NCBI GenBank assembly: GCA_021234155.1
Contig: JAJEKV010000099.1
Coordinates: forward strand, 3,317,453 to 3,381,452
Length of the DNA: 64,000 nt
Direction: 5' to 3'
From: Isoetes taiwanensis
Taxonomy: Eukaryota; Streptophyta; Lycopodiopsida; Isoetales; Isoetaceae
The notes under the pieces are model-generated. The model ran no database searches. It saw only the letters and a program-made list of their open reading frames with translations, and had not been told where the DNA came from. Shown in pieces: positions 9,824 through 54,000 of this stretch. Position 1 is the first letter of the stretch, and each line of letters opens with the position of its first letter. A program made the position numbers and the translations under genes.

Positions 9824-9828
9824 TCTTG

Positions 9829-12365: not shown

Positions 12366-12368
12366 AGA

Positions 12369-14860: not shown

Positions 14861-15604
14861 CATAGATACCCGGAACCCCGTTCCGCACTCCGTTCCCGTT
14901 CCAACACGCGTTCCTATGCTTGAGGCGTTCCGGGAACTTCTCCTTACGTTCCCAAAGTGTGTCTTACCGGGAACGTCATTGGGAACTCCGTTCCCGACGT
15001 TCCGGTTACAACGTTCCCAACATGGGAAAAGAAAAATAAAATTTCAACATTATCAAATGACCTAAAAGTTAAATTTTACAAGAAAATAAAACCTAAAATA
15101 AATTAATAAATTGGCGATATGGCGGAAGATAGCGACGTCTGAGTTTTTTCTTCAAGAAACAGGTCGAAATCAACAGTTTTAACAAGGAAACAAGTCGAAA
15201 TCATAAATTTACATGTCTAGAGGTTGAAATCATTTAGTTTCTCTGATTCTTTTTTGAATTTTTGTGCAGAAGGCGGAGCTTGCCTTGCAAACCAAGCCCT
15301 CCAGGTACCACGTTTTTTATCTTTCTGATACTTGTCTTTGTCTTTGAATAGATACTTGTTCTTCTGATTCTTGTCCGATACTTGTCTTTCTTGTCCATAC
15401 TAGGTTTATAATTTCCATGTAAAATAAATTTGATAAACAAAGTAAAGCAAGTAAAAACACTACAAGTATAATAGTTGGGAACTCCATTTTTAAGTTTAAA
15501 AGGTTCAAATTCACGTTCCGACAGTTCCCGTTCCCGCCCGTTCCAGTTCCGGTTCCGGGGAGAAGGTCCACGTGATGAAAACGTTCCCGATCCGGGTATC
15601 TATG
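14861..15604. mobile_element. hAT-type non-autonomous transposon, 744 bp
   Basis: The ends are CATAGATACCCGGA and its inverse TCCGGGTATCTATG. They are flanked by a perfect 8-bp duplication CTTTACAC (14853-14860 and 15605-15612). An 8-bp duplication with short inverted termini is the signature of hAT elements. The subterminal parts are full of the words GTTCC and GTTCCCG in both orientations, probably transposase-binding repeats. There is no transposase frame. It is nested in the 14-kb CACTA element. Confidence 0.9.
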
Positions 15605-15612
15605 CTTTACAC

Positions 15613-16779
15613 TGTTACAAAAGGATGTCTTTGTATGGTGGCATGGTCACGGAAACCACATTACGGTGTGGATCTGTGGGGCCCCACAATCGGTTGCAGT
15701 CGGAAAGGGGTCACTGGCCACACCGAAATGTGGAACCGGTGGCCGTATCACCACAACATGGAAATGGGGAGCTAATTTGCCCCTCCGCCCCCATGTTTTT
15801 TCAGCGAAGGTCTGTCTATGGCGGTGGGCGGCTATGGCGGTGGGCAGCCCTTGGAGCTTGCTATGATGCCGCTTTGTAGCCCCTGGCACTCAATGGCTAT
15901 GGCACCTGCCCTATTTCACAGTACAAGTAGGATTTGCTTTAGATTTTTCAAGTTTTTCTTCCAAGCTTAGGATCTTTGCAAGTTTTTGGGTTGCCCCTAA
16001 GGGGGCAAACCCTCGTTTATATGGGGTTTGTGGCATATCCTAGGTATATGCCAGAATATACCTAGCATATGCTGGTGACTGCTAAAAACCTGCTGTTCCT
16101 TGTAAATTGGCGGTCTCCTCCGTTCTGGATCGGGGATGTTCGAACCGGGTAACTGGCTGCGTTCTGGATCGGGGATATTCGAACCGGGTAACTGGGAAGT
16201 CGAATCTCATCAAGGAAGAAGGCATATCGGCCATGGCAGACTGCGTAGTGTCGTTGGTTTGAAGAACTCTTCTTTGTCGTATTCTTTCTTTTCTGAGATA
16301 AAGTCCAGTTCTTCGGGAAGATGGTCGCCACTCCCTTTCCACAAGGCTACAAATTCGTCCCTTCAGGACAGATAAATAATGATCAGGGACAGTTTTTCCA
16401 AGTTTGCAACGTTCATTGTCATTTCAATATGTAGGCCAGATCTATCTCCACACTTTACTGTTGGCTTTCTGATATATAACTTTGGGCCAGGTGAACAGTA
16501 GGAATCTAATAGTACAGGATGCACTAGGTAAAGAAGTACCATCACAACTGGTACCCTGTAACAAAACGTCTTCTAGAGTTCTATTTGCAAGCCAATCTTG
16601 GCATCTCAACAGAGATGTGTCCTAGCTACTGGCTTGTATTCAAAGTTGTTGTGCCCCCATTAGGCTTTAACTCCTACTTTGTAAGCGTATCAGCCAAAGG
16701 AACTGCAGGTCTGCTTTGCCACCACTCGTCCTATCATTGACATGCTATCGTAGTAATGTCTACCATCTTTATCTTACAG
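15613..16779. other. CACTA interior without recognised gene
   Basis: A 40-bp tandem pair lies at about 16121-16198 (GTTCTGGATCGGGGAT plus TTCGAACCGGGTAACTGG, twice). A palindromic stretch of CCTAGGTATATGCC type lies near 16036-16075. The string TTTTTCTTCCAAGCTTAG near 15953 recurs at about 20498, hinting that parts of the captured DNA are duplicated. Confidence 0.4.
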
Positions 16780-17026
16780 AGATGTCTACCACTCAGAGCT
16801 TACAAGATACTGGCACAATTGAACTTGGGCCCGGGGATTTTACATTGTCATTCTCTGCTGCCAGTGGCCAAGTTATATGTATGGCCAACAAGAAAGCTGG
16901 GGTATGCTTTAATTGAGAGAGAGAGAAATGTGGGATCTTGTACTGATGTTTTGTAGCTGATTCCAGATTGATATCCCAGTATACCAATCGTTTAATTGGT
17001 ATGAAGTATATACAGGAGCGGGCCAG
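16780..17026 (+). pseudogene. Captured alpha-mannosidase gene fragment (two exons)
   Basis: Exon 16780-16901 encodes IELGPGDFTLSFSAASGQV and ends at a GT donor. Exon 16967-17026 encodes IDIPVYQSFNWYEV and lies between an AG acceptor and a GT donor. From memory, this order (LGPG.F..SFS...GQ, then (V/I)D(V/I)P(I/V)QS..WY) matches the beta-sandwich part of plant vacuolar/lysosomal alpha-mannosidase (GH38). The catalytic domain is absent. No further mannosidase exon is recognisable before CLPP6-like exons start 440 bp downstream, so this is a fragment moved by the surrounding transposon. Both exons remain open and correctly spliced, so capture may be fairly recent. Confidence 0.7.
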
Positions 17027-17468
17027 GTTAGTGAATGGATGTCAATAATAATTATAATCCATACAAATTACTTTAATGTTATCTATCTTTATATTTGAAC
17101 AGCTCAGCTACTAATAGATTAAGTATGTTGGTCCTTTGAGGAAGGCCATACTTGTAATAATCAGGTCGTTCTAGCACAGAAAAGATGTGCTCAAATCTTG
17201 CTGCCATAACATGATTGGCCTAATGAATTGCAGCTGCAAAGAATAAGCAGATCTTGTGGGGTTAAAATGCTCATATTTGCTACTGGTCATTCCAGATCGA
17301 AGATAATATGGAGCTTTCCTCGAATAAATTTCCTTCAAATTTGTTTCTGCCCAGTTTATTTTCAAAGTAAGTAAAGCATGGTTCTGCCTTTCTCTTGTCT
17401 TAGTTAGTAATGTGTTCTAGCTTTTTGGTCAGTGATACCAGTAGCTACCTTTTTCTTTGGTCAAACAG

Positions 17469-20181
17469 TCAATTCCCAAGTTGCACAACGGGTCATATCA
17501 CAACTGCTAATGCTTGCTACCATTGACGAGGAAGCTGATATAAAGGTTTGCTCACTGCCTCTTAAGGTCGATATGCCCAAGAATCAAAATTAGAACCTTT
17601 TTCTTTTTATACTGCTCAACATGCTTGATTTAATGCTGCCCCTCTGTTTTGCAAAGATAGCCTATCTTCTCCATGATTCAAGGATATAGATAACATGTTT
17701 AACATTGCAGACCCAGAAGAGTTTAGAGTTAGAAAAACCCTTGTGCAGGCTGATAAGAATTGAGCATTTTACCACCAAAACTGTTTATTTTGAGTTTGTA
17801 TACGTGCTTCAAAACACTTTTCAAAGCAATAGACGTTTTCATAAAGAACTTTCTCGTAGGCAATAGAGGGCTAGAGAAAGACGTTCCCTCTAACATATGA
17901 AAACTGAGGGCGATGATGGAGATGATTATTTTAGCTTGTAATTTAATGCATTTTTGCTTCCTGTTACATCAACATCTGTTCTCTCACATACAATGTCTGT
18001 TTCTTTGTAATAACAGAGTAGAATCATCATTCAACCTTGGATGCCTTGAATCTATGTATTTTCAACATCACGTGCTGGATCAACAAAAAGCCAATGCTGG
18101 ATCAGCAAAATGCCAATCTTCATTCATCCAGGCAATTGACCACAAAGAGCAGGCCCACTGCGATTCTTTAACAAGAAGAAATCATATTGCCCAGGTGTAG
18201 CACTCATGTCAAAATTCCACAACCACCAACCGCATATGCAGCAGCATATTATAATGGGCACACTTCCATAAATCCTCAAATTTCTCAGCATCTCCCATCA
18301 TCATATTGCATTTGCTGAAAAGGCATCAAGTACACCTTCTGTGGGTTGGATATAGCTTTCCATGCTACAATATCAGGGGAATATGTTGTTGAAAAGTTTT
18401 GGGCTTGGTAGCTTAAACCCATACATATTCAACAGAGCAGTCCCATAAATGTTATCCAGGTGAACATGAATTTGTGTGCCCTCAATACTGGCAGGGAAGC
18501 CCCAAAAACCAGCACCAAATCTGGCCCTATTAGGCTGAGATTACATTCCCCCATTTACTAAAATAGTTGATCGGTTATTCATGCATGTTCTCCAAATATT
18601 TTTGATCCTCATCTACACATCCTGCATTTTTTCAGAATGACATGTGACTGATCTTTACTGACTTAAAGGAACTCGAAGCTACTTATAAATATGGACTTTT
18701 CAAGACTAATTATTCGAAAGCATACATATCCAAAAAGTTTTAAAGCTTCCTTCACATGTCTATTCTCTCAAAATGCAACTCATTGCATTCCTTGCAGTTG
18801 TCTTAGTGAACTTCAAGTACACATTTTGAACATTTGTCCACCTTCAATACATCCTAAAGAGGACTTAAACTTGCAGCACACCAGCAAGTACTTGCTTTCC
18901 CTTTTGCTGAGTAACGTGTTCAGACACACACTGAGGACAACACTGCAAAGAGAATGACAGTTTGTTGCCTTCTTTGTTGCATCTGATGTAAGAAACTGAT
19001 TGTCAGTATGGCATATCCACATCTAGCACGTCCCATCATAACCGGTTATCTCACTCTGTTACCTTACCTGTGATAACTTTTTTTGCATCTAGAAGTATTT
19101 GACATCACGCATTTCTTGCTATTTGCTACATTTGAAAGTGTGGGATGTGGACTTTTGCATTGATGCAAGCTTCCCAGCAGCCCTGGGCTTGTAGTGATGT
19201 ATTAATGCACAACCTTGCACATATGGCACTAGCCATGATATTTTACGCATTTATAGATCTGCTGGACCCAGCGCATTCCAAGGTATATCATAGACATACT
19301 ACGTTCAGCCCATTGCCACCTAAAGCAGCCAATAATATGGACAAAAGTAATGGACATTTGTTGTGGATAAAAGGACATAATGCACTCAATATGATATCAA
19401 GCATCAGAACAAACTAAAATCTATGATTGAACTTAGTCATTTGGTTTTGTCTCTTTTCTTGCTTCTCCCTTTGCAGTGTTTTTTACAGATTTTGCTCAGT
19501 TTGGGAGCTTTGTGTTTAATATATGCTTGAAACGTTTAACATAGTGTATAAATTTGTGCATGTCTGCAGATGTACATAAATTGTTCAGGAGGTAGCAGTT
19601 ATTCAATTCTTGGGATATACGATTGCATGACTTGGGTAAATGTCATATAGCTCATGTTGTTTTATACATGTCTTATAGGCTTCAAAATGTACTGCAATGT
19701 TATCTTGTCAGGAATGTTGTGTAATACTTTTCTTCTGAGACAGCTCTCTACAGAGTTGTAACATCGATATGAAAGAAAATGAGAATGTTATTATGCTTTT
19801 GTTGCTGCTATTAATAAACGTCCTCCTTGTAATTTAGATAAAGCCAAAAGTAAGCATTATATGCTTTGGTATGGCTGCCAGTCAAGGCACATTGATCCTA
19901 GCAATGGGAAGAAAGGAATGCATTTGCCATGCCAAATGCTCGCATTATGATCCATCAACCACAAGGTGGTTGTGGGGTAAGTATTAGCAAAATTCATTCA
20001 AGGTGTCAATGAATGTATAGGGTACGATGAAAGATGTAAGATGGCAAGCTAATGAAGTTGTTGCATCCCGAAGTGTAAAATTTCATTGCTAAACACATGA
20101 TAATGTTTATTCTCTCTAATCAAGGAGTCAATGAAATTCAAAAAATTGATCAGATGTATGCTGCCTTCACTGGTCAACCTG
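17469..20181 (+). pseudogene. CLPP6: Captured CLPP6-like plastid Clp protease fragment
   Basis: Four exons are recognisable: 17469-17545 (VAQRVISQLLMLATIDEEADIK), 19570-19635 (MYINCSGGSSYSILGIYDCM), 19838-19976 (IKPKVSIICFGMAASQGTLI, later MPNARIMIHQPQGGCG) and about 20127-20181 (VNEIQKIDQMYAAFTGQP). All have GT-AG borders. The nucleophile Ser of AASQG and the His of MIHQP are kept. Nuclear plant ClpP6 is a subunit of the chloroplast ClpPR protease core. One base is missing inside exon 3 between the TLILA part and MPNAR, shifting the frame. The first exons, the helix just after exon 3 and the last exon are absent or unrecognised. Introns are retained, so it was copied as genomic DNA. Confidence 0.8.
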
Positions 20182-21660
20182 GTTAAGTCATTACCTACAT
20201 GGATGACAGTTTACGCCAAGAGATATTGGGCAGGTTCTTATTTTTTGCACAAACAAAAAATGGTAGCCACTTCACCCTCCGACCATGGAGGGCAACCCTC
20301 CGGGCGCAGCACCTTGTTTCTCATGATTTGCTTAGGAATGTGTTCATTTAATTTTCTTGACTCTTTGGTGGAATTTATGGGTCTTTCCAGCCAATGCCGG
20401 GCATTTGCAAAAGCTTGACGAAGCTGCAGAAAGGTTTACAGGCCGATCTCATGGATTATGCTGCCATGCATTCTGCCATCGATGGATCTTCCAAGTTTTT
20501 CTTCCAAGCTTAGAATCTCTTAAAATTTTCGTTGTTTTTAGCTCTGTTTCGTTGTTTCTATTCTATTCTATTCTATTCTATTCTATTCTAAAAGTTGAGT
20601 GCACATTGCATATTCTTCTATAAATCTTTTGATGCAGCATAAGCTACTTATAGGATTTGCATGTTTTAAGAAGCTCAAAGGACAAAAGATGATTGTCTTA
20701 CGTCAATGAATATCAATGTTGTCAGAATATTTGGCACATCATATATTGACATCCCAATTTGAAACCAAATGTGTTTGAAACCAAATGTGTTAGTCATACA
20801 TTATGATGTGCCACATCTTCAAAAGAAATGCCATGTCATTATAGTGAATATGCTTCTTCTAAGAAGTTTCAAATTGCCTAGGCAAATTCTTCATTTTCTA
20901 TTCCCTCATTTTTCGCCATGTCATCACTCATAGTTGCATCCCACATGCTCATACCATGCTATAATCATTTCTAGTCCCACATCTCCTTATTGCTTGCCAC
21001 TATTGCCTACTTATCTCACTCAAAAAAATTCTCCTTTTCTTTTAATTGGCCTAGTCATTTTCTATCTAAAGTGCATAAAATGCTTAGTCATCATGTCACA
21101 TACCACATCATCCAAGGGAATGCCATGTCACCATGGACAAATATGCTTTATTTTTAAGTTGAAAAGTTGTCTAGGCAAATTCTTTGGTTTTCTAGCCCTT
21201 CATCTTTTCACACCTCACCACTCATCTTTGCCACCTCACCATACTCATGCCATGTCATCTCCCATAATTTTTGCAAAGAATGAAGTTTGCTTGTTGTTTC
21301 GAAGCAACCTCAATATTTCTAGTGCTATATCATTGCCATTTCACCTTATGTGCCACTATTCTACTCTGCTTTGCCACTCTGTCCCAACGAAGTATATTTC
21401 AACCACAACCTGCGGAAACATAAGACAGCAAGGTGCATGATGATGTGGCATGCCATTGGTGATATGTCATGTGCATGATGATGTTGCATGCCATTGATGA
21501 CATGACATGCCAAGTAAGCAAGGCCAACTTTTGACTGGCAAAGTTGACTGGCAAACTTGTGAAAATAGAGACTGGCAAAGGAATTGCACGTTTTGTTAAT
21601 AGAAGTCCTTAAGATCTCAAGAACAAATATTCAATTTCTTACTACAATTCTTAATATCTA
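20182..21660. other. CACTA interior; possible exon near 20400; no firm gene
   Basis: A plus frame from about 20391 to 20510 encodes KLQKGLQADLMDYAAMHSAI and ends at TAG. It might be a last exon of a captured gene, but I cannot place it. The rest (20600-21660) is A/T-rich with repeated words such as GCCATGTCATC and TGATGTGGCATGCCATTG and shows no gene. Confidence 0.3.
20555..20590 (+). repeat. (TTCTA)n microsatellite, about 7 units
   Basis: A perfect pentanucleotide run in the captured region. Confidence 0.95.
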
Positions 21661-21666
21661 GTTTAA

Positions 21667-21740
21667 CCCCCCAGCAGATCCCTAACTACATCATGAGTCA
21701 TGGTTTCAGCCTCTGCTAGTTTTGCATTGAGCAAGAATAC
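21667..21740 (-). pseudogene. Captured class-12 kinesin exon
   Basis: Minus-strand exon between an AG acceptor (TTACTTCAG) and a G|GTTAAA donor. It encodes LNAKLAEAETMTHDVVRDLL, which I recall as a conserved stalk segment of plant phragmoplast kinesin-12 (PAKRP/POK type). No motor domain is present. It lies 92 bp downstream of a J-domain exon on the same strand, so transcription could create a chimera of two unrelated genes. Confidence 0.55.
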
Positions 21741-21832
21741 CTGAAGTAAATGTATGCGTCAGCAAAATCTTTTTTCTTCAGAGTTCATAAATAATAGAAT
21801 ATAAAACAAGTGTAGTACAGGAAGCGTACTAC

Positions 21833-21911
21833 TTTGTCCGGATGATGTCTCAATGCTAGTTTTTGACATGCCTTTTTAATCTCAATAGCTGTTGAGGATG
21901 GCTCAATTCCA
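21833..21911 (-). pseudogene. Captured DnaJ (J-domain) exon
   Basis: Minus-strand exon between a TTTTTGCAG acceptor and a GT donor. It encodes GIEPSSTAIEIKKA followed by a helix and the HHPDK tripeptide motif of helix II-III, the J-domain signature that stimulates Hsp70 ATPase. The family normally has Y.(R/K)LAL..HPDK; here CQKLALRHHPDK is kept. Only this exon is present, and no flanking J-domain exons are visible. Confidence 0.7.
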
Positions 21912-21959
21912 CTGCAAAAACAACAATTAATAAGGACCATAAACACATCTAAGTTTTGA

Positions 21960-22927
21960 GGCTATTGCTTTGCTGCTGTTTGCACTTTGTTGTCAGGGTT
22001 CCTTTGAGATTTCTCTTGGTATGAAATGCTTACATTTAGTGATTCTATATAGGTGGAGAAGGAAGGATTTGTATAACAGATAATGCGCCGAGGAACATTG
22101 GCGGTGCCAGTTTGATACAACTAACATCCAAGTAAACCTAAGGTACCACATATTTTTGTCACGTCTTTGTAAATTGGAAAGGGATTGGCTTCATTATTCA
22201 AGCTTTATAGTTCAACATTCTCTTCAACAGAAAAGCAAATCTAGCCTATTAGATCTTTGAGTTCTTTTGTTATTTACTAAGTATATTTCCAGCTTGATTT
22301 CTGAAAAAGTTCTAACCAGTCAATCATTCTATGTGCATCTTTTTTCCTGCTAATCTAAGCTGAAGGAAGATAATTTAATTTATTATTGGAGTTGAATCAT
22401 TGCAGGAATGCATGGTTTGTCGAATGGCCCAACTTGATGATACATTTATCGAAATGTTAGAAGCGACCTGCATTGGATCTATTTCAATCGGTCCCACAAT
22501 CTGGATGCTTTGCTTTTGGTTTCATTCTGTGTGCACAAAGTAGGGATGCCCGCAATTCCATGACCCTATCCTTGGAGTGTGTGATGAAGGCGAACCACAG
22601 CTTCTGGTAAAACAATTCTTAGACTGTTGGCCTTTGGATATTTCCTTTGGACAAGTGGCATATTATGCATATGCTAAGCTTTCTCTAAGATATTTTTCAT
22701 GTGTTTAGATGGCAGTAACAATCTTAAGTTATGCATGCATGACCGATGTTATTGCTTTGGTGTTGTTTGCACTTTGATGTCAGGGTTCGTTTGAGATTTC
22801 TTTTGGTATGAAATGCTTACATTTAGTGATTCTATATAGGCAGAGAAGGAGCTGTATAACAGATAACTTGCCGAGGAGCATCGGTGATGCAAGTTTGATA
22901 CAACCAACATGCAAGTAAACCTAAGGT
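21960..22927. repeat. Direct duplication of about 180 bp, 785 bp apart
   Basis: 21963-22145 and 22748-22927 are about 90% alike and share GAAATGCTTACATTTAGTGA, then an AG-GTGGAGAAGG or AG-GCAGAGAAGG boundary and a short open stretch ending near AACCTAAGGT. Between them, about 22405-22465 has an exon-like frame (CMVCRMAQLDDTFIEML) after a TTGCAG acceptor. I do not recognise the product. The duplicated segment may be a repeated exon of a captured gene. Confidence 0.6.
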
Positions 22928-23899
22928 AATTATGTGCCTTCATGAGATTTGTTTCAGTTGAAATAGGTATAATTGAGCTCAATTATTAGAAGTGTCAGAC
23001 AATTTGAGTTCGTTTAATTGCAATTATGGTATGTTAGATTCATTTATTGACACCATCCATTTGAAAAACAAATTGTTTCTTCTGGAGGGATGCGAGGCCA
23101 GATCAATGAAAATATCCGCGCAGAGTTGCCAAGCATGTAGTTATATTGTAATGGCTTTGAGCGGATGCTTCCATGAATAGCCCTGTTAACAATGCAGTTT
23201 AGACGATGAAGACACACATAAGAAAAAGATAATTTCCTTTCTTGCACTGTTGGAAATTGGATATTGTCGGACAAAGGGATTGTTTCAAGAGATTGAAAAC
23301 CCATCATTTTTAGAATAATCAAAAGATCTTTCATATCGTGTTCTTAACGCCATTTTTCCTCCATGGTTTTTTTTTTTTTCAACTTTTATGAACCAACAAT
23401 TTACATTATACAATTGGCTTAATCATATAGTTATTAACTTAAATGTTAGGACTCTATTTGCTATGCTTCCTATGGACTATAACTTTAACAATGGCTTTTT
23501 TTCTCTCTTTTACCAGATCAACTATGGGGGATTTCCCTTATATTTACAACACCTATTCATTGCTATTTGGGCATAAGAGAGATTCAAACACTACATGTTG
23601 GAAATGTACCTTGCAACAACAATGTATAATTCATTGCCACGAGAAATTAAAATGTCTTTAGCAAATCCTTAATCTCTATTGTTAACATCCATGTTCAGTT
23701 TCAGTGTTTGTGTAACAACCTATGTGTTGTGCTTCATGGTTTTTGCACAAGTTAGAAACAAGATTTGCATAAGTGTTTGTCTTATGGTTTTTGTTGCATC
23801 AACCTTTGACAATGTGGCGTCTTAAATGCTACTTTAAATAAAAATTTTGCCATCTAAGTTGAAGGTATATGATGCCATGATGTTCATTGCTTTTTGCTG
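22928..23899. other. No gene recognised
   Basis: A/T-rich captured or filler sequence with short frames only, and one poly-T tract at about 23371. Confidence 0.3.
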
Positions 23900-24520
23900 T
23901 CTTAGCCCTCACTCAAATACAAGTCAAATACAACTAACTACTCGACATTGTTTAGGGATAAGGGGAGGCAATTTTAGGGTTTTAGGGTTTGTGTATTTAG
24001 ATATGATATCATGGCTATGTAAGAAATGAACTTACATCTTTTAAACATGGAGACAATTTCAACAGGTTGCCACCATTACTTCTTTCTTGGCACTCACTCA
24101 AATACAACAAACTAATCGACATTGTTTAGGGATAAGGGGTTCAGGGTTTAGGCAATTTCTTGGTTTTAGGGTTTGTGTGATTATATAGGATATCATGGCT
24201 ATGTAACAAACAGACTTGCATCTTTTAAACATAGAGACAATTTCAATTGGTTGCCTCCATTACGCCTACTTATTTCTTCCAATTTATGCTTTCCATTTGC
24301 TACCCGTTCTATGTACCCACGAAAACTACCCAAGGTTGTTTAGGATAAGGGGTTTAGAGTTTAGGCAATTTTAGGGTTTTAGAGTTTGTGTTTAGATAGA
24401 ATATCATGGCTATGTAACAAACGAACTTACATCTTTTAAACATGAAAACAATTTCAATGGTTGCCTCCGTTACGCCTCCCTATTTCTTCCACCTTATGCT
24501 TTTCATTTTTCCTACATATT
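23900..24520. repeat. About 200-bp tandem repeat with telobox motifs, three units
   Basis: Units at about 23910, 24095 and 24325 share GACATTGTTTAGGGATAAGG or close variants, then TTTTAGGGTTTTAGGGTTTG, then ATATCATGGCTATGTAA. The TTTAGGG words equal the plant telomere/telobox motif (AAACCCTAA). Each unit is roughly 190-220 bp. This may be a short interstitial telomere-like array or a telobox-bearing promoter fragment. Confidence 0.75.
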
Positions 24521-25753
24521 CCATATGGCCACGACTAATGCCAGTCATCCCTAAGTGCTAAACCTTTTGTAGTTGATACTACATCACATTTATAGACATG
24601 ATTACCATAGCAAGCCACACACTCTACATCTTCATATATCTTCAACCTCCCAATTACACATATCCCAATTACACTCTACATCTTCATAATCTTTCAGCTT
24701 CCAACTATATAATAAATGCAAAAATGTACTACACTTCATTCATAACTTGGAAATTTGGCATTGTGAAAATCTGTAGAAGATAAAAAGAACTACTACCCTT
24801 TTTAATTCATAATAGACTAATATCCGAAACTTATGGTATTCGATCTACATGCTCCATGACATTGACCTGTTCCATCCCATCTATCAGTTCCATTCCATCC
24901 CTTCCCTGCTATCCTATCTATTATATTCTACCAACAATTCATTCCATTCCACCTAGGTATTTTATTGCCTCTTATCCATTATGTGTGCGAACGGCTAATG
25001 CCCGGCATCGCCGGGCATGCGTTTCTAGTCTCTTTTAAAGTCAGGTTAGAGTCCTGGTAACGTTGCCTAAATAATAACCTACACCAACAACTCTAGGGCT
25101 ATGCGCAAAATGTCCAAGGCATCAAATTTCCACATATTGCATTCTTTACATGCAATATGCCATTTTCAGTGTCAACTACCGGGCCAATTTTTCAAGGTAG
25201 ATAAAGATAGGTTTTTCAACCATTATAAAATTTTGAAGGTCTTACCAACCTTTAAATATGAACTTAAAGCCATAGTATTAAATTAAGACCACGATCTTTA
25301 GACCATGCAACCAAGCAAATGCGGCTCCTGGCATAGTATCCATCTAGCAAATCTAGAGGGCATTTCGCCCTAACTTATTTTTAGTATGCCCTACAAGTAT
25401 TATATTAAACCATAAAATACAAAGACATTGCATGCACATAACAAATTCTATGTCTCTAGAGATGCCAAATTGTCCCCGACTGTCCACGAGGAACTCTAGC
25501 AAGATTATAAAATTGTCAAGTTACTGTATGAATATAGTATTGTAAGTCTATTGGGTAGATTCTTAAGTGTCCCATAAACATATAAATATGGGGTCCGCGT
25601 TAGCTCAAACCTACAATACTAGCTAGGGATGGAAATTAATCCTCCCAGGGAACTAAATCAAGCTTAATTAAATAATACATCATTAGACAGATCGAGGAGC
25701 TTTGTGAAACATCAAATTTCATCTAAAATATACCGTTCAATCAAATGTTATAA
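24521..25753. other. No gene recognised
   Basis: A/T-rich sequence with repeated ATTCCATC-like words at 24870-24950. GCCCGGCATCGCCGGGC at about 25000-25016 is a perfect short palindrome. Confidence 0.3.
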
Positions 25754-26100
25754 CTAAAATTGTAATAGCCTAGAAAAGCACCATCGACGATTAGTCCGAT
25801 GCAATATCCGATTTAATAGTTCGGACGCAAAAATCGACGATATATCCGACGTTATATTTGTCGTGATTTTTCGACGCGATATTCTCGACGTTAAATTTTC
25901 GACGCTTTTTCTGACGATACATATTTGACGTATATTCTGACGATTAATATGACGCTTAACCTGACGAAGGCTTCTGACGATTTGTAGGAAAAGCATCAAA
26001 ATAGTAATCGCCAAGACGCTCGCCACACTGCACGCCGTGCAAAAATCTCTAGAGGGGCCCGACGATTTTTCTGACAAAAAATGCTCATTCTCTTGTAGTG
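25754..26100. mobile_element. Terminal fragment of a second CACTA element
   Basis: The segment ends TTCTTGTAGTG-like (CTCTTGTAGTG, 26090-26100), the inverse of the common plant CACTA terminus CACTACAAGA. Inside it, at least ten copies of short words TCTGACGA, TTCGACG and ATCGACGA recur, a typical subterminal array. No matching left end is visible nearby, so this is a truncated or rearranged copy nested near the right end of the 14-kb element. Confidence 0.7.
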
Positions 26101-26155
26101 TTGGATCTAACCGTTGAAGTTATTTTTCACAACATTCCCAAAGTTGAGCACACAA

Positions 26156-26560
26156 ACAATATTCCAGGTGGTGGTGCTTTGCTTAAAAAATAGCCTAAAA
26201 AAAACCATACTTCCTTAAGAAATAGCTGCGTAAAAACTACGCCACTTCAGAAAACCACACTTCTGTAAAAAAACAGCCACTTAAAACCTACTTAAAAACC
26301 ACACCTCAAAAAACCATACTTACTTTAAAAAATAGCTACGTAAAAACTATACCTAGTTATATAAACCACGCCAAAAAAAATCATATTTCCTTAAAAATAG
26401 CTTCTTAAACACTACACCTAGTTATAAACTACACCACTTCAGAAAACCATACTTCATTAAAAAACAACCACTTAAAAACTACACCCGCTTATAAACCACA
26501 CTTCAAAAAACCATACTTCTTTAAAAAACAGCTATTTAAACAATATTCCAGGTGGTGGTG
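26156..26560. repeat. Right subterminal repeats; terminus duplicated 384 bp apart
   Basis: The last 20 bases of the CACTA element, CAATATTCCAGGTGGTGGTG, occur at 26541-26560 and again at 26157-26176. Between them lies an array of AAAAACCACACTTC and TTAAAAAACAGC words (about 35-45 bp period), the inverse of words in the left subterminal zone. The duplicated terminus suggests end slippage, a tandem end duplication or an abortive insertion. Confidence 0.75.
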
Positions 26561-26563
26561 AGA

Positions 26564-28606
26564 GATTCTTCAATCTTCTTCCCGAAGTCGCTGGAGAGCG
26601 TCGAAATTGCATTGCAATGCACTCTAGTTGCCAGGGGATGCCTTGAAAGCGCATCCGCTACCACATTGAGCTTCCCTGGCTTGTAGACTATATCAAAGTC
26701 ATACTCTTCAAGGAACTCCATCCACCTTCTCTGCCTCAGGTTGAGGTGTGGTTGCGTGAATACATACTGGAGGCTCTGATGATCTGTATACAACTGGAAC
26801 TTCCTTCCCAAAAGGTAATGCCTCCAAAGTCTTAATGCCCTGACAACCGCAAGCAATTCCTGGTCGTGCGTCGAGTAGCGCGTTTCGGCGTCGTTCATCT
26901 TTCTGGAATCATACGCTACCACACGCTCTTCTTGCATGAGCACTGCACCTGTAGCTATCTTACTCGCATCTGTCGCCACAAGCTTATCTTTCTCTGGATC
27001 TGGCAGGGTCAACACAGGGGCGGTCGTTAGAGCTTCCTTCAACAATTCAAACCTCGCTTGGGCTTTCTTGTGCCAATGCTCTGCCCAATGTTTCACCTTT
27101 TCCGCCCTCGTCAAGTCTGTTAGCAGGGCTGCTATCTTAGCAAAGTTCTTCACGAACTTCCTGTAGTGCCCTGCTAGGCCGAGAAAACTTCTGACCTCGT
27201 GCACATTCTTCGGTGCCGGCCACTGAATCACTGCTTCAATCTTGGCAGGATCCGTCGAAATTCCTTCTGCTGATATCACATGACCGAGGTATTCCACCCT
27301 CTCCGTTGTGAAGTGACACTTCGACAACTTGGCGTACAACTGGTGCCTCTTCAACTTCTGTAGCACTCTCCTTAAGTGTTGTACGTGTTCTTCAAGAGAT
27401 CTGCTATACACCAAAATGTTGTCAAAGAATACTATCACAAAGGTATCCAAGAACTCCCTGAAGATGTCGTTCATGAGCCTCATGAACGTCGCGGGGGCGT
27501 TCGATAAGCCGAAAGGCATTACCGTGAACTCATAGTGCCCATACCTGGTCCTAAAAGCCGTCTTATGGATATCTTCCTCCTTTATCCGGATCTGGTGATA
27601 GCCTGACCTTAAGTCGATTTTGGAGAAGACCTTTGCACCTTGGAGCTGATCCATCAAGTCGTCCGATCTGGGGAGCGCATACTTGTTCTTAATGGTGTGC
27701 TTATTCAACTGCCTATAGTTTATGCACATCCTTAAACTGCCATCCTTCTTCTTGACAAAAAGAATAGGCGCTCCAAACGGCGAGACGCTAGGTCTAATGA
27801 AGCCTAGGTCGAGCAACTCCTGCAATTGCTTCTTTAGCTCCATCAACTCCTGCGTCATCATTCTGTATGGAGCCTTACTTGTCGGCTTTGTTCCTGGTTC
27901 GAGTGCTATCTCACACTCGACTCCCCTATAAGGAGGGAGCTGCTTGATCTCATCTGGAAAGAGATCATGGAACTCCGTGATCAAGTTAGCTACCTGCTTA
28001 GGTAACTTGCTGAGCCCCTCATCCTCCTTGCCTTCTTCTGGCTCAGACACTTGGATCTCAAGCTTGAAGATATAAGCTATCTGCTCACTCTTGATGCACT
28101 TGAACAGCCGTTTAGAAGACATACACTGCATGATGGGAACAACTTCTTTACCTGTGATCTCAATGATCTTGCCATCGGGCGTTGGGAAGGTCACCTTCCG
28201 CTTCCCACAATCGATGATGGCTCCTGCTGGTCCAAGATACTCCATTCCTATGATGAGGTCATACTTGCCAATGCCCATTACGTCTGCCCCCATCTGAAAT
28301 ATTAATCCCTGGCAAGTCGATGTCGAAGTTGATCCTCTTGCCTGATGTCTGCCTTACTGCTCCACTTGCTAAAACCACGGGCCTCGGCTTCGACTTCAAT
28401 GGTTTCAACTTCAACATTTCTACCATCCTTGGGGATGCAAAATTATGGCTACTTCCTGAATCTATCAGGACTATGAAAGACTTGGCCTTGGCCTTCTCTA
28501 CTGTGGAAATTACCTTATACTGACTCTCTGCTTGCTCTGTATCTATTGCGGCAAAGATATCTGTAGTCGCGGGCTGCCTCGCCGTCGTCGTCGGGTAGTG
28601 TCCCAA
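26564..28606 (-). pseudogene. Ty3/gypsy protease, reverse transcriptase and RNase H (element A)
   Basis: In order on the minus strand: an aspartic protease with VLIDSGSSHNF (28259-28606) and its second half with DLIIGMEYL after a frameshift near 28290. Then RT with [33 protein letters not shown] and the catalytic box, which reads FFDNILVYS where the family has (Y/F)xDDI(L/I). RNase H follows with [24 protein letters not shown] and ADALSRHP. The second aspartate of the RT box is therefore Asn, which should disable polymerisation. Apart from the protease frameshift the frame is long and clean. It is truncated in place by the CACTA insertion at 26560. Confidence 0.95.
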
Positions 28607-28661
28607 TCTCCCCTAACTCGCTTGTATTTGCACTCATGACGTAGGGGCGATTCGCCGTATT

Positions 28662-29913
28662 CTATGGCTGGCTGAAGCACCGAAGCAAAAGCTTTTCTAT
28701 ACACTCCCGCCTCTTCTCCTTGGGCATAGCCTGCAAAAAGGATCGCACTGCTTTGGAGTAGTTTGACCCCTCCTGCTTGTCCTTGAAGGACACCTGCTTC
28801 TTCTCGTGCTGCTTTCCCTGGTTGCCACCATATGGGGCTCTAGCTGGGCCTGGACTGGCTGCCCTAGGGCTATAACTCCATGTTGCCTTGCCTTTATCCT
28901 GGAAATACTGCTGCCTCTGCCCGCTATTCTGAGGCCCTGTTCCTTGCAAACTTATTGCCTTGGACTCTGCTTCTGATACTGTCTTAGGGTTTATTGCCCT
29001 TACAAGCTTGCGGATCTCATCATTCAGCCCCTCAATATAGCTTTCCACTGCATGCTTTTCACCCAACTTTGGCACATCTGAAATTTTAGCCTCATGAATT
29101 CCTCTCGTATATTTTCGACTGATTTGTTTCGGTTGCAACCTATAGAACTGGCTTTGCATCATCTTTGGACTTGTGCTCTCTTGGGACGTAATGACGCTTG
29201 AAGGCTTTAACAAACTTTCTGAACCTGCAAGCATCCCTGCTCAAGCCATGGGCCTTTGCATACCCCTTCCACCAAATGCGTGTTGCTCCTTTCAGGTTGG
29301 CTGTTGCCACCCTGCCTTTATCCTTGTCCTTCATACTATAAGCGTTGCCATATTCACTCATCTCATCGAGCCAAGCCTCTGCCTCCATGCCTGACCTGTT
29401 CTCGCCTGAGAATTGCTCGAGCTTCCTGGCCTTCCAAACATTTCCCAATGCAGAGTCTACCTTCTTCTGGTAGTCAGAGGCTCTTGTGTCCCTTTGTCGT
29501 CCATCTGTGGTATTCCTCTGCCTTCCATCTGCAGTGTTCCTCTGCCTTTCATCTGTTCGGTCCTGGGCCTGCTCTTCCTCTTCCTCGGAGTCGGAGTCCG
29601 AATCTGAGCTTGAGTCGGAGGATTCTAAGTTGGAGAACCTCCTTCTCTTGCTCCTCTTCTTGTCCCTTCCTGTTTTCCGAGCTGATGCTTGCGGCAATTG
29701 AGCGTTGCCCACCGAACCCACTCCTGCTTGTGCGGCCAGCAAAGCCTTTATCTGCTCAAGGTCCGTCCTCATTCGTGATATTTCCTCTTCTGGGGTCATG
29801 GGTCCAAATTCCTCAAACAGGTTCCTTGCCGGGGGTGGCCTGGGCGGACTCTGTTCTTCCATGTGGTCTCGGCGTTGTCGTTCTCTTGAGCCTAGGCCTC
29901 TAGCTGCATACAC
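28662..29913 (-). pseudogene. Ty3/gypsy gag-like frame with frameshift (element A)
   Basis: The N-terminal part (29140-29913) has a Pro-rich start, an acidic Ser/Asp/Glu tract with NLS-like KKRSKRRRF before it, tandem RQRNT.DGRQR repeats, and a gag core (AWLDEM, TRIWWKGY, FVKAFKRHYVP). After a frameshift at about 29140-29234 the core continues with KHAVESYIEGLNDEIRKLV to 28662. That is the retrotransposon gag (capsid-like) fold that packages element RNA. I cannot see a CCHC zinc knuckle. The start at 29913 is the first Met of the long frame, 172 bp after the acidic-protein gene ends. Confidence 0.85.
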
Positions 29914-30084
29914 AAGTAATTCATGGCTATATGGTTAGTTTTACTTGTTCTCTTGCATTATTTATGTTTTATTGGTATAGTTGGGGAACAAAATACATCA
30001 ACAAAACATTTAAAGTGCAAAAGAAATTATATTTATATTATATAATTATTTTAGTACAAAAAGCCTCCGGGATCAAGAGTTTAA

Positions 30085-31721: not shown

Positions 31722-31731
31722 CTATTTATAG
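31722..31731 (-). promoter_or_regulatory. TATA box of the 507-residue gene
   Basis: Minus strand CTATAAATAG followed by GTCCCCCATTTC. The same TATA core and a CCCCCATTTC tail occur upstream of the H3-like gene (33899-33908). The distance to the ATG at 31608 leaves a leader of roughly 85 bases. Confidence 0.75.
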
Positions 31732-31921
31732 AAAAGGGGGAAACCCTAATTTTTGGATGACCTAGAATTTACTGGGATTGGGCGATTCTGATCTACTAAG
31801 AGGTGCAATTGAGAGTTTGAAGACTACTTTTAGGGTTTGAGCATGCTAAGAACAACTAATGACTCTGTTGCAACAAACTAGAGATCATTTGGATATGGCA
31901 TGGTGAAGAAAATGCTGCGAG

Positions 31922-31988
31922 GTCTCACACGTTGCGCCCAGACCGATAATGAAAAGTTCATTTTCTGCCCTGGCGCGACGTGTGAGAC
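31922..31988. promoter_or_regulatory. 67-bp palindrome, copy 1 (type A)
   Basis: It reads GTCTCACACGTTGCGCC at the left and GGCGCGACGTGTGAGAC at the right, nearly perfect inverses, with an inner inverted pair AATGAA/TTCATT around AAG. It lies about 0.3 kb upstream of the 507-residue gene. It could be a protein-binding operator or an RNA/DNA hairpin. Confidence 0.85.
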
Positions 31989-32120
31989 ATGGGCTCTATA
32001 TGGGCTAAACTTGATCAACTTGGGGGATCTAAGGGTCTAATCCTACTGGACCGATCGAGATAGGCAGAATTAACCCCTTATTTGGTTGATTTGGAGCTGT
32101 TTTGGGCATTTTGGGGCATG

Positions 32121-32187
32121 GTCTCACACGTTGCGCCCAGCCCGAAAATGAAAAGTTCATTTTCTGTCCTGGCGCGACGTGTGAGAC
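32121..32187. promoter_or_regulatory. 67-bp palindrome, copy 2 (type B)
   Basis: Same outer arms as copy 1. The core GAAAATGAA-AAG-TTCATTTTC is fully symmetric. It starts 199 bp from the start of copy 1. It is upstream of the 507-residue gene and downstream of the H3-like gene. Confidence 0.85.
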
Positions 32188-32330
32188 ATCGTCTCAATTT
32201 TGCTCAAAATGTCTAATTTGACTAAAACAAAAGCCAGAATTCAATATCTTAATCTAATTTAGCAAGATAAATATTTTATTTACTCAAAAAATCTTTATAT
32301 TAACAAAAATTTCCATTATTTACAAGAAGT

Positions 32331-33796
32331 TCAAGGGCGTTCTCCCTTGATGTGTCTAGCCAAATGCATATCCTGCCTCATGAGCGTGACCCTCTTCGCG
32401 TGAACTGTGCAGGCCGTCGAATCTTCAAAGTGCTGCACCAGTTTTTGCTCTGCTGCCTCCTGTAGGCACAACAACATTTCGTCGGTCACCCGCATGTCTG
32501 TGTTATACTCTTGCATAACCTCTCGGACCAAGCGTTGAAACGGTGCCCATGGGATCAAGAGTCCGTAACTTCGCTGGAAGTGCCGGATTTCCTTGAGGGC
32601 TCTCTGCTCCTTCTGCTTGCTGTTGGTCCGCTTCTTCCCTGGTGCTCTAGGAGGCTTGGGCTTTGGTGGCGGCTTTAGGGTCTGGCTTTTTGTCGGGTGT
32701 CTGCCTTCAATTGTTCTCACCCCGTTGTATGCCTCCCACTTCACCATGTAGGCGTTGTGCTCCTTGATCTTCTTCTGATAGACCTTGGCGGGGTCTATCA
32801 CATACGCCTCCCGTTGTGGCCGCGGGGCTTTAACCCTATCCCACGTCGGGAAAGGTGGGGGCTTCGGCGCCTGTCGGGGCTGCTCCTGCTCAGGTGCCAC
32901 CTGCTCAGGTACTTCCTTCTCCACGACCGGGGGTTTCAAAGAGCTTGCCCCCTCAGTGTTGGGGACGTAATCTTCGTCCGAGTCGTCGGTAGAAGGCGGG
33001 GTCTGCTTGCCTGATGGCTCATTGATGACGGGACATTTTTTTTTTTATTTTTTTTTGAGGGTAAGAGTATGATATATTAATTAATAGTAAATATTATACA
33101 AGTATCCCTTATATGGGATTATAAAGGGAAGAAACCCTACTACCAAATCAATCATGGAGTAACCTCAGCAAATCCTGATCCTGATTATCCTCAGATAACC
33201 AGTGACACTTGAAAAACAAGTAGAATCCTTGAACTTTGCCAATCCTGTCTAGAGCTTTGTTGTAATTACGGGACATTTCGCTCGCTTACCAACCTTCACA
33301 ACTGTTCTCTTGCCCGCCTTAATGCCTTTGGCCCTCTTCCTCTTATTTCGCCGTATTTGTGGTTGGTTTTCTTCCGTCCCTTTGTCCTCCTCTCTCGGGC
33401 GCTCTTTGGCTTCATACTTGTTGATGAATGCAGCGGAGTCTTCTTCTTGACGAGCTAAGCTTGATTTGCCCTTTGCTTGCTCTCTCTCTCGACTTCCTAT
33501 GAATGAACTTCAGCTTGAGTTGTTCCTCAAATGAGTGCATTCATACTGCTCCATTCCTCCTTGCTCCTCCTTTTTCCTCCTCGGCGATTTCTTGAGGATT
33601 TGGTGCATGACGCATCCATTTTGCCTCCCCTATGACCTACATCCCGTTGCTCTGGTCCAGTGCCTTGCCTCCTCCTTCTGGATGAGATTCGCCTTGCGGA
33701 AAAGCGTTCTTGGGTAATCCTCACAGATCAGGCGGGGTCACTTTGGCCCAGGTCGCCTCGGCGGGAGGGCTTCTGGCGATCTGCTGTCGGGACCAT
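32331..33796 (-). pseudogene. Histone H3-like (CENH3-like) gene inside element A, split by a retroposon
   Basis: The last 90 codons form an H3 histone fold: ALKEIRHFQRSYGLLIPWAP and FQRLVREV (alpha-N and alpha-1), LLCLQEAAEQKLVQHFED (alpha-2), HAKRVTLMRQD and LARHIKGERP (alpha-3 and tail). EIRHFQ...LLIP and VTLMR(Q/K)D are, from memory, CENH3-like rather than canonical H3 (EIRKYQ...LLIR; VTIMPKD). The CENH3-typical longer loop 1 is absent. The N-terminal tail is long, Pro-rich and basic, with KRKRAKGIKAGKR near 33310-33350. The frame continues across a 229-bp retroposon insertion (33039-33267). Upstream of about 33490 the frame breaks; the ATG at 33796 is a guess and exon structure is unresolved. 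A poly(A)-type AATAAA lies near 32275. Confidence 0.8.
33039..33267 (-). mobile_element. Non-LTR retroposon insertion (5'-truncated LINE or SINE)
   Basis: The 229-bp insert has an A-tract tail on the minus strand (T-tract 33039-33055 on plus) and is flanked by an 11-bp direct duplication ACGGGACATTT (33028-33038 and 33268-33278). That is the signature of target-primed reverse transcription. Insert plus one duplication is 240 bp, so the downstream reading phase is kept, but the insert contains stops. The sequence before the tail, with ATATATCATACTC, resembles LINE 3' ends. Confidence 0.85.
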
Positions 33797-33898: not shown

Positions 33899-33908
33899 CT
33901 ATTTATAG
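33899..33908 (-). promoter_or_regulatory. TATA box of the H3-like gene
   Basis: Minus strand CTATAAATAG followed, after AGATC, by TAGACCCCCCATTTCC. The context matches the promoter of the 507-residue gene (31722-31731), so the two promoters are probably duplicates. Confidence 0.7.
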
Positions 33909-33986
33909 GGGTCGATTTTTTTGGTCAAACTTCAAACTACCTTTTTGTGTCATCTGGAACGCCTAGAACACCTAAATTCAAGCATG

Positions 33987-34053
33987 GTCTCACACGTTGC
34001 GCCCAGACCGATAATGAAAAGTTCATTTTCTGTCCTGGCGCGATGTGTGAGAC
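33987..34053. promoter_or_regulatory. 67-bp palindrome, copy 3 (type A)
   Basis: Nearly identical to copy 1, including the non-symmetric core ACCGATAATGAA. One arm base differs (GCGATGTG). It lies about 80 bp upstream of the H3-like gene's TATA box. Confidence 0.85.
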
Positions 34054-34189
34054 ATGGTGGGTCCCGCTGCTATATTTTATACTTTCTAAGCATATAACAT
34101 GACAATTCTACTAATTCTTAGCTTAAAATTAGAATTATCAAGTTATTTTTCCGTAATTTATGACTTTTTTTGTGTGTTTCAAGCTGAAT

Positions 34190-34255
34190 GTCTCACACGT
34201 TGCGCCCAGCCCGAAAATGAGATTCTCATTATCTGATTGGCGCGACGTGTGATAC
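34190..34255. promoter_or_regulatory. 66-bp palindrome, copy 4 (type B)
   Basis: Matches copy 2 in the left arm and in GCCCGAAAATGA. The core then reads GATTCTCATTATC and the right arm ends GTGTGATAC. It starts 203 bp from copy 3, mirroring the copy 1-copy 2 spacing. It is the most diverged copy. Confidence 0.8.
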
Positions 34256-34445: not shown

Positions 34446-34457
34446 GCTCTGATACCA
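34446..34457 (-). promoter_or_regulatory. Primer binding site (initiator Met tRNA) of element A
   Basis: Minus strand TGGTATCAGAGC follows the LTR end TGTCACA after one base. It is the standard plant Ty3/gypsy primer site complementary to the 3' end of initiator tRNA-Met. It sets the direction (right to left) and the upstream limit of the internal region. Confidence 0.92.
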
Positions 34458-34458
34458 C

Positions 34459-36025
34459 TGTGACATCCCCTATTCGCATACGGTGTGCTCACCGTATACA
34501 AACAAGAGTTCATCCCCCATACCAGCTCCATGCCGATACAGGGCCCTCCACATGACACTGCAACCGTGACGGGTTCCAGTGGGAAGAGTGAAGGGGTCAT
34601 TTTACCCCGTCTCCCTCAGGGCCTACCTAGCTGCGGAAGCGTAAACATACAAGTCAGTATACACTATCATCACATATCCACCTCGAAGGGTGGTCCATCA
34701 CATCTGCATGACAAAGATCAGCACAATACATATGGGAAGTCCTACCCAAGTCTCAGACTCAAAGGGATGACTGACGGCTTGGGTCTCCAGAGTTCATTGC
34801 AGACAGAATTCATGGCAATGGTTTTGGCTGGCATAAGAACATGGCTTAGGGTTGTCCACTCCATCCGCCCCTCCTGTGCACACTTTGCAAAGCGGTAGGG
34901 CCGGACTCGGGACCGTATCTCACGGTGCATAGCCAAAGGGGTTATTCTCGGGTTGCATCTCCCGGTCCGATGGGGCAGGTAGGGATCACTCCCTCCGAGA
35001 TCTACATGCCTGACTCAAGGTGACTAGAGGGCCTTTGCCGTCTTGACTTGAACCCAATGGAGGGTGACGATCACCCCACGGTGTCGAGCCCATGCCTTGC
35101 CCACACGCAGTTGGCAACCCATTAGGCCTAGTCCACGGTGATCCTGTGAGCACTAACACACCATAGGGATCGTTCAAGAGTCAGAACACGAACCTCCTTA
35201 TAAGCCAGTCTGGCCCCTTCACCATCAACCAGGTGTGGTTCTTGTACACAGGCCGAATCTATAGTGTGCTAGAGAGGCTAATCTAGGAGCATCTACTACC
35301 AAGCTTTAGGTCTCTACCCCCCTTCCCAATACAAGGAGTTCATAGAGATACATCATCCATATACATCACAGAAGAACTAAAGAACTAGATCTATTCTATA
35401 TCATAGAGTTAGGTTCTTTAGTTAGAGTCTGATATCTAGAGATCTAAAGGGCTGCTATGGGCAATTTAATAGGCTAAACCTACTGATTCTATGACTGAAA
35501 GACGGTTTAAGCTATTAATTTGCCTAAATACCTGATCCTTGAGTTGCTCCTCCTGACCTGAGTTCGACCATCCTGCTAAACTGCTCAAATCAAGGGAAAC
35601 TAATGGTGCAATTCTCTCAGACAGAGTCTGGGAGGCGGTTTTGACCCTTGGGGCAGCCAAAGCAGAGCTCTAAAACCCTAGAAACGAAAATTGGGCAAGT
35701 TAGGGTTTTCCCTCCTAAATAGACAAGGGGTTGGGCTAGGGTTTCCAATTATCCCCTTTAGGCATGTGGGATAATTGGGAATGGGCCCACTTGCCTTTAA
35801 TGGTTAGGTGGCAAAATGTGCCCACATGGAAAGGTGTGCACCTTAATAAATGTGCACATTGGTAAATGTGCACATTAATGATAAATGCACATACCTAGCA
35901 AGTTGCCCCCTAGGGGCTACCCGCCTGGCTACACGTCGGCGTACACGTCAGTCAGAGTGGCGTGTACCCGTGACGAGGCAGTACAATATACGTCCTAGGA
36001 CTGTATACTGTGCTGGAACGTCACA
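34459..36025 (-). mobile_element. 5' LTR of element A, 1,567 bp
   Basis: On the minus strand it starts TGTGACGTTCC at 36025 and ends GATGTCACA at 34459, next to the primer site. The TGTGAC/GTCACA termini are inverted repeats. Inside are paired AATGTGCACATT palindromes (35850-35900). The right border coincides with the point where family G coding similarity begins (36026, AAGGC), so element A appears inserted in a G element. The matching 3' LTR and target duplication are not visible, so the LTR call rests on termini plus primer site. Confidence 0.8.
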
Positions 36026-42200: not shown

Positions 42201-42413
42201 AATATAAAGTACCACAGAAAACAGCATATTGAAGCCTCATGGTTTTACCAGGTAAAAACAACATCTTATACATAGTTGCCTAAGCTTAGGATATCCATCG
42301 AGGCTTAGAACCGAGCAACATGCTAGGTCCTGAGCTTAGAATACCTACAGAAGCTTAGTAGGCAATATGCTATGTTTTACTTGATGAATGGTCCTATAAG
42401 AAATCATGCTAAC
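39261..42413. other. No supported gene
   Basis: A/T-rich sequence with only short frames. It may hold further decayed integrase of the 38.6-kb remnant. An inverted or direct structural boundary is visible only at 42414, where the second G copy starts. Small tandem words such as AGCTTAG recur at 42280-42360. Confidence 0.3.
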
Positions 42414-52450: not shown

Positions 52451-52454
52451 CAAA

Positions 52455-53910: not shown

Positions 53911-54000
53911 CCCTTTTTTATTAAGTTATAATTATAAGTTATTATTATAATTATAATAATAACGGATTAAGTCAAGTGCACACTGCAGTTCAATCCTTAC

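Follow-up and report, generated by a model that had tools for sequence, protein, structure and literature searches.

Why does a gene for histone H3 lie inside a retrotransposon? Histones are normally the property of the host, and the tails of H3 are the main surface on which transposon silencing is written. The question is raised by a 64,000-nucleotide stretch of the Isoetes taiwanensis genome (assembly GCA_021234155.1, contig JAJEKV010000099.1, positions 3,317,453 to 3,381,452; hereafter the window), in which a first-pass annotation had described a CENH3-like histone gene within an LTR retrotransposon of the chromodomain kind. We show that a broken copy of an element lies there, from a chromovirus (Ty3/gypsy) lineage in which histone H3 is a regular accessory gene, and we consider, with a probability of roughly 0.7, that the histone changes chromatin to the advantage of the element.

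An H3 reading frame within an LTR retrotransposon

The minus-strand ORF at 33044..32331 encodes 237 amino acids and matches the Pfam histone family PF00125 with 96.4 bits and an E-value of 1.8e-27 (cut-off 26.4), and a solved H3.3 with an E-value of 2e-27. The histone fold occupies approximately the last 95 residues (about 32624-32331) and spans the whole region from alpha-N to alpha-3, so that the complete H3 fold previously read from the letters is confirmed by profile search. Table 1 lists the parts of the surrounding element, which are arranged in the order 5' LTR, H3 fusion ORF, ORF2, gag, protease (PR), reverse transcriptase (RT), RNase H (RH), integrase (IN) and chromodomain. The 5' LTR has a short terminal inverted repeat and is directly followed by a primer binding site, which we take to be of the tRNA-Met type.

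Table 1. Features of the H3-carrying element and of the sequences inserted into it (window positions).
Feature	Position	Strand	Remarks
Integrase C-terminal SH3 domain and chromodomain	9372..9854	-	SH3_Tf2-1 5.1e-20, Chromo 1.7e-10
Integrase zinc and core region, decayed	11349..12366	-	ORFs read by eye
14.2-kb insertion(s) splitting pol, foreign to the element	12366..26564	.	missing from second copy L057/L058
Reverse transcriptase and RNase H	26536..28353	-	RVT_1 1.4e-39, RNaseH 1.1e-35
Protease	28259..28612	-	Pfam Asp_protease_2 3.6e-5
gag, two overlapping frames	28662..29934	-	weak Ty3 capsid/gag Pfam matches, below cut-off; conserved in relatives
ORF2, 528 aa	30085..31671	-	between H3 and gag; other subfamilies have relatives in this position
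TATA box of ORF2 unit, CTATAAATAG	31722..31731	-	region resembles H3 promoter region
Hairpin 4, between H3 and ORF2	31921..31992	-	present in second copy too
Hairpin 3, between H3 and ORF2	32120..32189	-	present in second copy too
H3 ORF 3' part: linker and histone fold	32331..33044	-	Pfam and H3.3 matches
PolyA-tailed insertion, SINE-like or retroposed transcript end	33039..33267	-	~230 bp; interrupts H3 ORF
Charged-linker frame remnant, upstream of insertion	33249..33509	-	same residues continuous in relatives
Decayed start of H3 ORF, MVPTADRQKPSRRGDLGQSDPA and stop	33728..33796	-	relatives MARTKQTARKPRRGE..SDPALIQ; start codon at 33796
TATA box of H3 unit, CTATAAATAG	33899..33908	-	TATAAA conserved in W
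Hairpin 2, upstream of H3 gene	33986..34057	-	inverted repeat
Hairpin 1, upstream of H3 gene	34190..34255	-	inverted repeat, -29.9 kcal/mol
Primer binding site TGGTATCAGAGC	34446..34457	-	follows 5' LTR; ~1.4 kb ahead of H3 ORF 33044..32331
5' LTR (TGTGACG...GATGTCACA)	34459..36025	-	~1.57 kb; border set by second copy L057/L058 aligning from 36025

It can be seen that the H3 ORF lies between the primer site and gag, as the first-pass annotation had it, with gag, protease and RT-RNase H downstream on the same strand. By Pfam the pol region has the order PR-RT-RH-IN with a Ty3-type RT, the integrase being split off by the insertion; in the second copy the integrase region is continuous with RT, and the integrase core is conserved in two further loci (L015 and L017). 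The integrase ends in a chromodomain, and four of the 20 10-kb loci described below (L015, L017, L022 and L025) match the chromodomain region of the window, a count that may be low since other loci may run off their 10 kb. The description of a histone gene borne by a chromodomain LTR retrotransposon is strongly supported. The 3' LTR of the H3 element was not found within the 64-kb window; partial direct repeats consistent with LTR pairs are present in L015 (94.6% over 501) and L022 (92.2% over 307).

The window copy of the H3 gene is broken, by a decayed start and by a polyA-tailed insertion. The gene had been assigned the span 32331..33796, and 33796 is indeed the start position of H3, but the start has decayed and the frame is interrupted: where relatives read MARTKQTARKP, the window copy reads MVPTADRQKPSRRGDLGQSDPA and then a stop. 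The insertion is flanked by an 11-bp target duplication, aaatgtcccgt (33278-33268 and 33038-33028), and is absent from the second copy.

The H3 gene recurs at the same place in other copies

We searched the genome (1,658,258,908 bases in 1,110 contigs) for relatives of the histone. The best 150 of 8,705 candidates scored in the Pfam H3 search all lay above the cut-off, and the eight top matches taken as loci encode canonical H3. When the window protein was used as the query, the best 150 of 11,487 candidates scored comprised the window itself and 149 sequences of 78-94% identity, and a stop fell inside the H3 match in 37 of the best 150 (counted by hand from the table). Codon-degenerate patterns were then counted genome-wide, irrespective of element context. 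The pattern HAKRVTLMRQDM has 747 exact sites, HAKRVTIM(P/T)KD(L/F) has 1,176, and the tail pattern MARTKQTARKP has 419, with varied codons and with proline at residue 10 where canonical H3 has serine; each reversed control gave 0. Allowing up to two mismatches raised the tail count to 1,422 sites (control 0), which would include canonical H3 genes. Many of the 'histone H3' annotation models in such a genome may be transposon genes. The main text of the I. taiwanensis genome paper does not contain the word 'histone' (PMC8566536).

Linkage to gag-pol was scored in 20 loci of 10 kb (L009-L028), hand-picked, with a preference for long frames, from about 135 Pfam matches below 15 canonical-looking ones. 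All 20 carry the H3 fold, and in 18 the lineage's gag, PR and/or RT lies downstream of H3 on the same strand, mostly at steady spacing. Among these 18, L021 has gag only, L014 is without gag and L015 is without ORF2. Of the remaining two, L016 has a distant gag piece only, and L026 has no gag-pol of the lineage within 10 kb; the latter carries two H3 folds on opposite strands, about 3 kb apart (3043-3309 and 5922-6188). The primer-site motif is present upstream of H3 in 13 of the 20 loci; in those with a full-length H3 frame it precedes the ATG by about 0.6-0.8 kb.

A comparison that does not depend on choosing loci by H3 set the best 71 RT relatives (of 41,507 candidates 72 were scored, one of them the window) against the best 149 H3 relatives. 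At least 19 of the best 71 RT relatives have an H3 match 2.7-4.3 kb upstream on the same strand, and for 17 of these 19 the distance is 3.9-4.3 kb; no H3 match (0) fell on the wrong side or strand within 1.5-8 kb among these best 71 RT and best 149 H3 relatives. The conserved ORF keeps its place and strand in many copies, and many frames are intact.

Across 15 loci the distances for H3 show no correlation with those for RT (r -0.04, p 0.64). Gag distances do track RT distances (r 0.82, p 0.0002), but those for RNase H, which adjoins RT, do so only weakly (r 0.45, p 0.08). Elements may therefore swap their 5' modules, as judged by a test that is noisy.

Two protein architectures share the H3 fold

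The element histones have one of two architectures. In the tail-type, which comprises the window's own subfamily (W) and lineages X, Y and Z, the H3 tail MARTKQTARK comes first, then a charged linker, which in W spans about 300 residues, and then the fold. In the N-type, seen in those of L009-L028 with a long frame, the protein begins with another N-terminal part, which contains a domain of some 200 residues, and continues through a linker to a near-canonical H3 fold, which in L009 and L018 is 88% and 85% identical, respectively, to that of host H3. Intact copies of W and X have the ARTKQTARK tail, as do broken copies of Y and Z; the tail is decayed in the window copy and is absent from N-type ORFs. 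Since the tail is confined to the tail-type, no single tail function can be shared by all subfamilies.

Subfamily W was sampled at 20 loci taken at steps down the list of best window-protein matches (two steps dropped), giving 21 sequences with the window. Sixteen of the 20 loci match the tail at 8 or more of its 11 residues, and 12 of them read exactly MARTKQTARKP. Two loci, L041 and L047, carry valine in place of K9 (MARTKETARV and MARTKQTARV) and possibly represent a sister lineage without the K9 position. A further eight loci were chosen for codon variety among the 419 exact tail sites; an H3 fold lies within 1.4 kb of the tail in seven of these (none at L054), and the frame is open from tail through fold in one (L053). 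Within the fold, R69, R72, R83, C110, H113, R116, T118 and D123, which we take to be residues of H3-H3', H4 and DNA contact, are kept in 20-21 of the 21 W sequences and in 20 of 20 N-type sequences. W carries P63, A65 and V84 where canonical H3 has R63, L65 and F84.

The histone is under purifying selection

Substitution rates were estimated by the Nei-Gojobori method as pairwise means. For the fold of 21 W sequences dN was 0.046 and dS 0.846, a ratio of 0.054, and for the tail (16 sequences) the ratio was 0.053, beside a faster-evolving linker; such ratios may be biased downward because the loci were drawn from high-scoring matches, and the contrast of tail and linker inside one protein is less dependent on the choice of loci. 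Windows of 20 codons along the whole ORF of 14 full-length W sequences gave values of 0.08-0.53, low in the fold and in a patch preceding it. The N-type fold (20 sequences, none with stops) had a median dN/dS of 0.053 over the 29 pairs with dS between 0.05 and 0.8, 123 of the 190 pairs being without a defined dS through saturation. For comparison, the values were 0.051 for the RT core (15 sequences, of which 5 contain stops), 0.080 for RNase H, 0.070 for protease and 0.202 for gag. The first-pass annotation had named a dN/dS below 1 as support for its proposal; the fold, at about 0.05, is as constrained as RT. We conclude that the H3 fold, and in W also the H3 tail, bears the mark of purifying selection.

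Promoter-like motifs, hairpins and ORF2

In every W sequence whose ATG could be located (19, the window among them), a TATAAA motif lies 93-112 bp before it, with a chance of 0.009 each in mononucleotide shuffles. No such fixed spacing of TATA and ATG was seen in the N-type loci. The window copy has four similar palindromes of 65-72 nt, one pair before H3 and one before ORF2, with CTATAAATAG after each pair, and the second copy likewise has four. The hairpin core is found upstream of the H3 ORF in 20 of the 21 W sequences (window included).

ORF2 was matched in 16 of the 20 10-kb loci (tblastn E <= 1e-4, best 2e-9). Its relatives are of about 450-530 aa, with 20% identity across the widest split, and searches of ORF2 gave no Pfam match and no fold match.

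Resemblance of subfamily W to CENH3

The histone was initially called CENH3-like, and part of this holds. Subfamily W does have the CENH3-like residues EIRHFQ, LLIP.APF and MRQD, but its loop 1 and N-terminal tail are canonical, and the fold of the other subfamilies retrieved by Pfam score is that of a near-canonical H3. The earlier remark that the longer CENH3 loop 1 is missing is borne out by alignment: W has no extra residues relative to canonical H3, whereas the loop is one residue longer in rice CENH3 and two residues longer in Arabidopsis CENH3. The CENH3 references used for comparison begin MARTKH.

A phylogeny with host H3 and CENH3 had been proposed as a check. A host CENH3 was looked for and not found, and the trees were built without one. 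In these trees the N-type H3s group with host H3, and W falls on the CENH3 side with support of 97/92 and 96/94 in two trees. When X, Y and Z were added, the tail-type formed a weak clade (81/77) next to CENH3 (87/89). The alternatives were not rejected by the AU test, either with all element H3s together (p 0.055 and 0.076) or with W placed with canonical H3 (p 0.059). One tree placed human CENP-A apart from plant CENH3, a sign that the signal in the 93 columns is limited. The element H3s may go back to a single capture or to two. By alignment score W is nearer to host H3 (239) than to any of three CENH3s (at most 229), and the fold of one W locus, L029_W, has 58% identity with that of rice CENH3 against 56% with that of host H3. 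In lineage X the residues are intermediate (LLIRKAPF), suggesting a stepwise convergence of the element histones toward CENH3-like residues.

A possible role of the element histone in chromatin

Elements that alter the packaging of DNA for their own benefit are suggested by the fact that selection has kept the H3 gene working. The protein would be made in the plant and enter the nucleus, where it would pair with host H4 through its fold and become part of nucleosomes, either over the element itself or in target chromatin. The N-terminal part brought there, which is the full ARTKQTARK tail with the charged linker in W and a separate domain of about 200 residues in other subfamilies, would then change the chromatin in the element's favour, either by resisting silencing or by preparing insertion sites. 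That a selected, element-carried H3 alters chromatin to the benefit of the element is probably the best explanation overall, and a little likelier through resistance to silencing than through targeting. Counting against it are the many broken copies, the missing correlation between H3 and RT distances, the restriction of the tail to the tail-type, the replacement of R63, L65 and F84 in W, the seemingly incomplete cage of the chromodomain and the possible downward bias of the dN/dS ratios.

A more elaborate version, which we put forward tentatively, is that the lineage builds its own nucleosomes: an H3 variant whose K4/K9 tail is complete, expressed from an internal promoter, might be placed on element DNA or at target sites, there to act as a chromatin mark private to the element or as a decoy for silencing, and might possibly be the partner of the element's type II integrase chromodomain. 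The chromodomain (..EFLQYLVKWKHLPVEDATW..), read by eye, has no aromatic residues at what we take to be the first and third methyl-lysine cage sites, and so looks like the plant type II kind, without most of the cage. Because most of the cage is missing, we do not favour the integrase reading K9 methylation on the element's own H3; some reading of that H3 by the integrase is possible but unsupported. Type II chromodomains are described as being without the first and third cage aromatics and as having binding partners that were not identified, in the portion of the survey available (PMC6317226).

The proposal that H3 alters chromatin for the element has to be weighed against four others. The window copy does sit among nested insertions, as would be expected had a host H3 retrogene or another transposon landed by chance in one copy, yet independent copies agree in where the gene sits and in its strand, which refutes such an accident, and we give it practically no weight. 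Transposons often carry pieces of host genes, and with many H3 copies broken here, the gene might have been captured once and copied along unused. The H3-like gene of a fungal hAT element, present in 26 very similar copies, offers a parallel for a passenger of this kind (the accessible part of PMC3538342). Against it stand a dN/dS of about 0.05 at a dS of about 0.85 in the 21 W sequences, an N-type value equal to that of RT, and the 419 exact tails, so that an unused passenger is very improbable.

More serious, although still doubtful, is that the protein acts chiefly as a free histone mimic, its ARTKQTARK tail occupying the writers or readers of H3K4 and H3K9 and its fold serving as a chromatin anchor or as a trap for H4. 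The constraint on the tail beside the faster linker argues for this, as do the varied codons of the exact tails and the proline at residue 10 in place of serine; the fold, however, is as constrained as the tail, and the N-type subfamilies keep the fold without an ARTKQTARK tail. Finally, the W histone might descend from, or compete with, the host CENH3 and direct the element to centromeres. EIRHFQ, P63, A65 and MRQD, the placement of W on the CENH3 side (97/92, 96/94 and 87/89) and the slightly higher identity of L029_W to rice CENH3 speak in favour. The canonical loop length, the ARTKQTARK tail, the higher score with host H3, the intermediate residues of X, the other groupings that the AU tests left standing (p 0.055-0.076) and the failure to find a host CENH3 point the other way, and we regard a centromeric histone as rather unlikely.

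Comparison with known systems

Our literature searches, with preprints and most subscription papers outside their scope, found no retrotransposon-encoded histone. Within that scope, what is new here is a histone gene kept by selection in a chromovirus lineage; viral histones are already known, as is a fungal hAT transposon that carries a gene resembling H3. With plant chromoviruses the window element shares the LTR, the primer site, the gag-PR-RT-RH-IN order and the C-terminal chromodomain, and it differs in having two extra ORFs before gag, one of them with an H3 fold. The available portions of a survey of plant LTR elements (PMC6317226) and of a paper on chromodomains (PMC3350952) mention no such gene.

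The nearest parallel is the hAT element of Pyrenophora tritici-repentis, which carries the H3-like gene H3L. According to the part of the paper available, H3L matches neither H3 nor CenH3 completely, and it resembles the present case in being mobile and H3-like, with insertions in the N-terminal tail, and in having been amplified with its element; the carrier is a DNA transposon with terminal inverted repeats (TIRs), and the authors suggested drift for its recent copies (PMC3538342). The window lineage, in contrast, is one of LTR retrotransposons; it has several diverged subfamilies, two H3 motifs that occur intact at 747 and 1,176 sites, purifying selection that is strong, and a chromodomain integrase linked to the gene. 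Around the H3 gene of the window, TIRs and a hAT transposase were looked for, and an LTR, a primer site and gag-pol were found instead; none of the 16 window ORFs searched against Pfam contains a hAT domain. DNA viruses, including those with the bracovirus H4, are likewise selfish genomes encoding their own histones, and the accessible text of a review of viral histones uses the word retrotransposon 0 times (PMC9145170). As for plant CENH3, subfamily W shares with it the EIRHFQ, LLIP.APF and MR.D-type residues; the CENH3s compared differ in their longer loop 1 and MARTKH start.

If the chromatin reading is correct, this would be the first retroelement-encoded histone in the literature that we searched, and a direct contest between element and host over the nucleosome. 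If selection makes a high-copy retrotransposon lineage retain an H3 of its own, some copies having the ARTKQTARK tail intact, then the conflict over silencing would extend to the nucleosome. The lineage would also serve as a test case for whether the action of elements on chromatin extends in trans, for what plant type II chromodomains bind, and for how CENH3-like features converge.

Other features of the window

The 14.2-kb insertion in pol (12366-26564) has minisatellite-like ends and, near 26101, the terminus CACTACAAGAG, which we take to be a CACTA-like terminal motif. Two inverted copies (74%) of another element, with uncharacterised ORFs, lie at 36037-37842 and 42413-44219, the first of them adjoining the 5' LTR of the H3 element. 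A direct repeat of about 5 kb with 91% identity, containing 9-bp tandem arrays, occupies 49778-54726 and 59091-64000 and represents either two large LTRs of one element or a duplication in tandem. The segments at 7176-8651 and 55099-59046 belong to one repeat family, in several tandem or partial copies.
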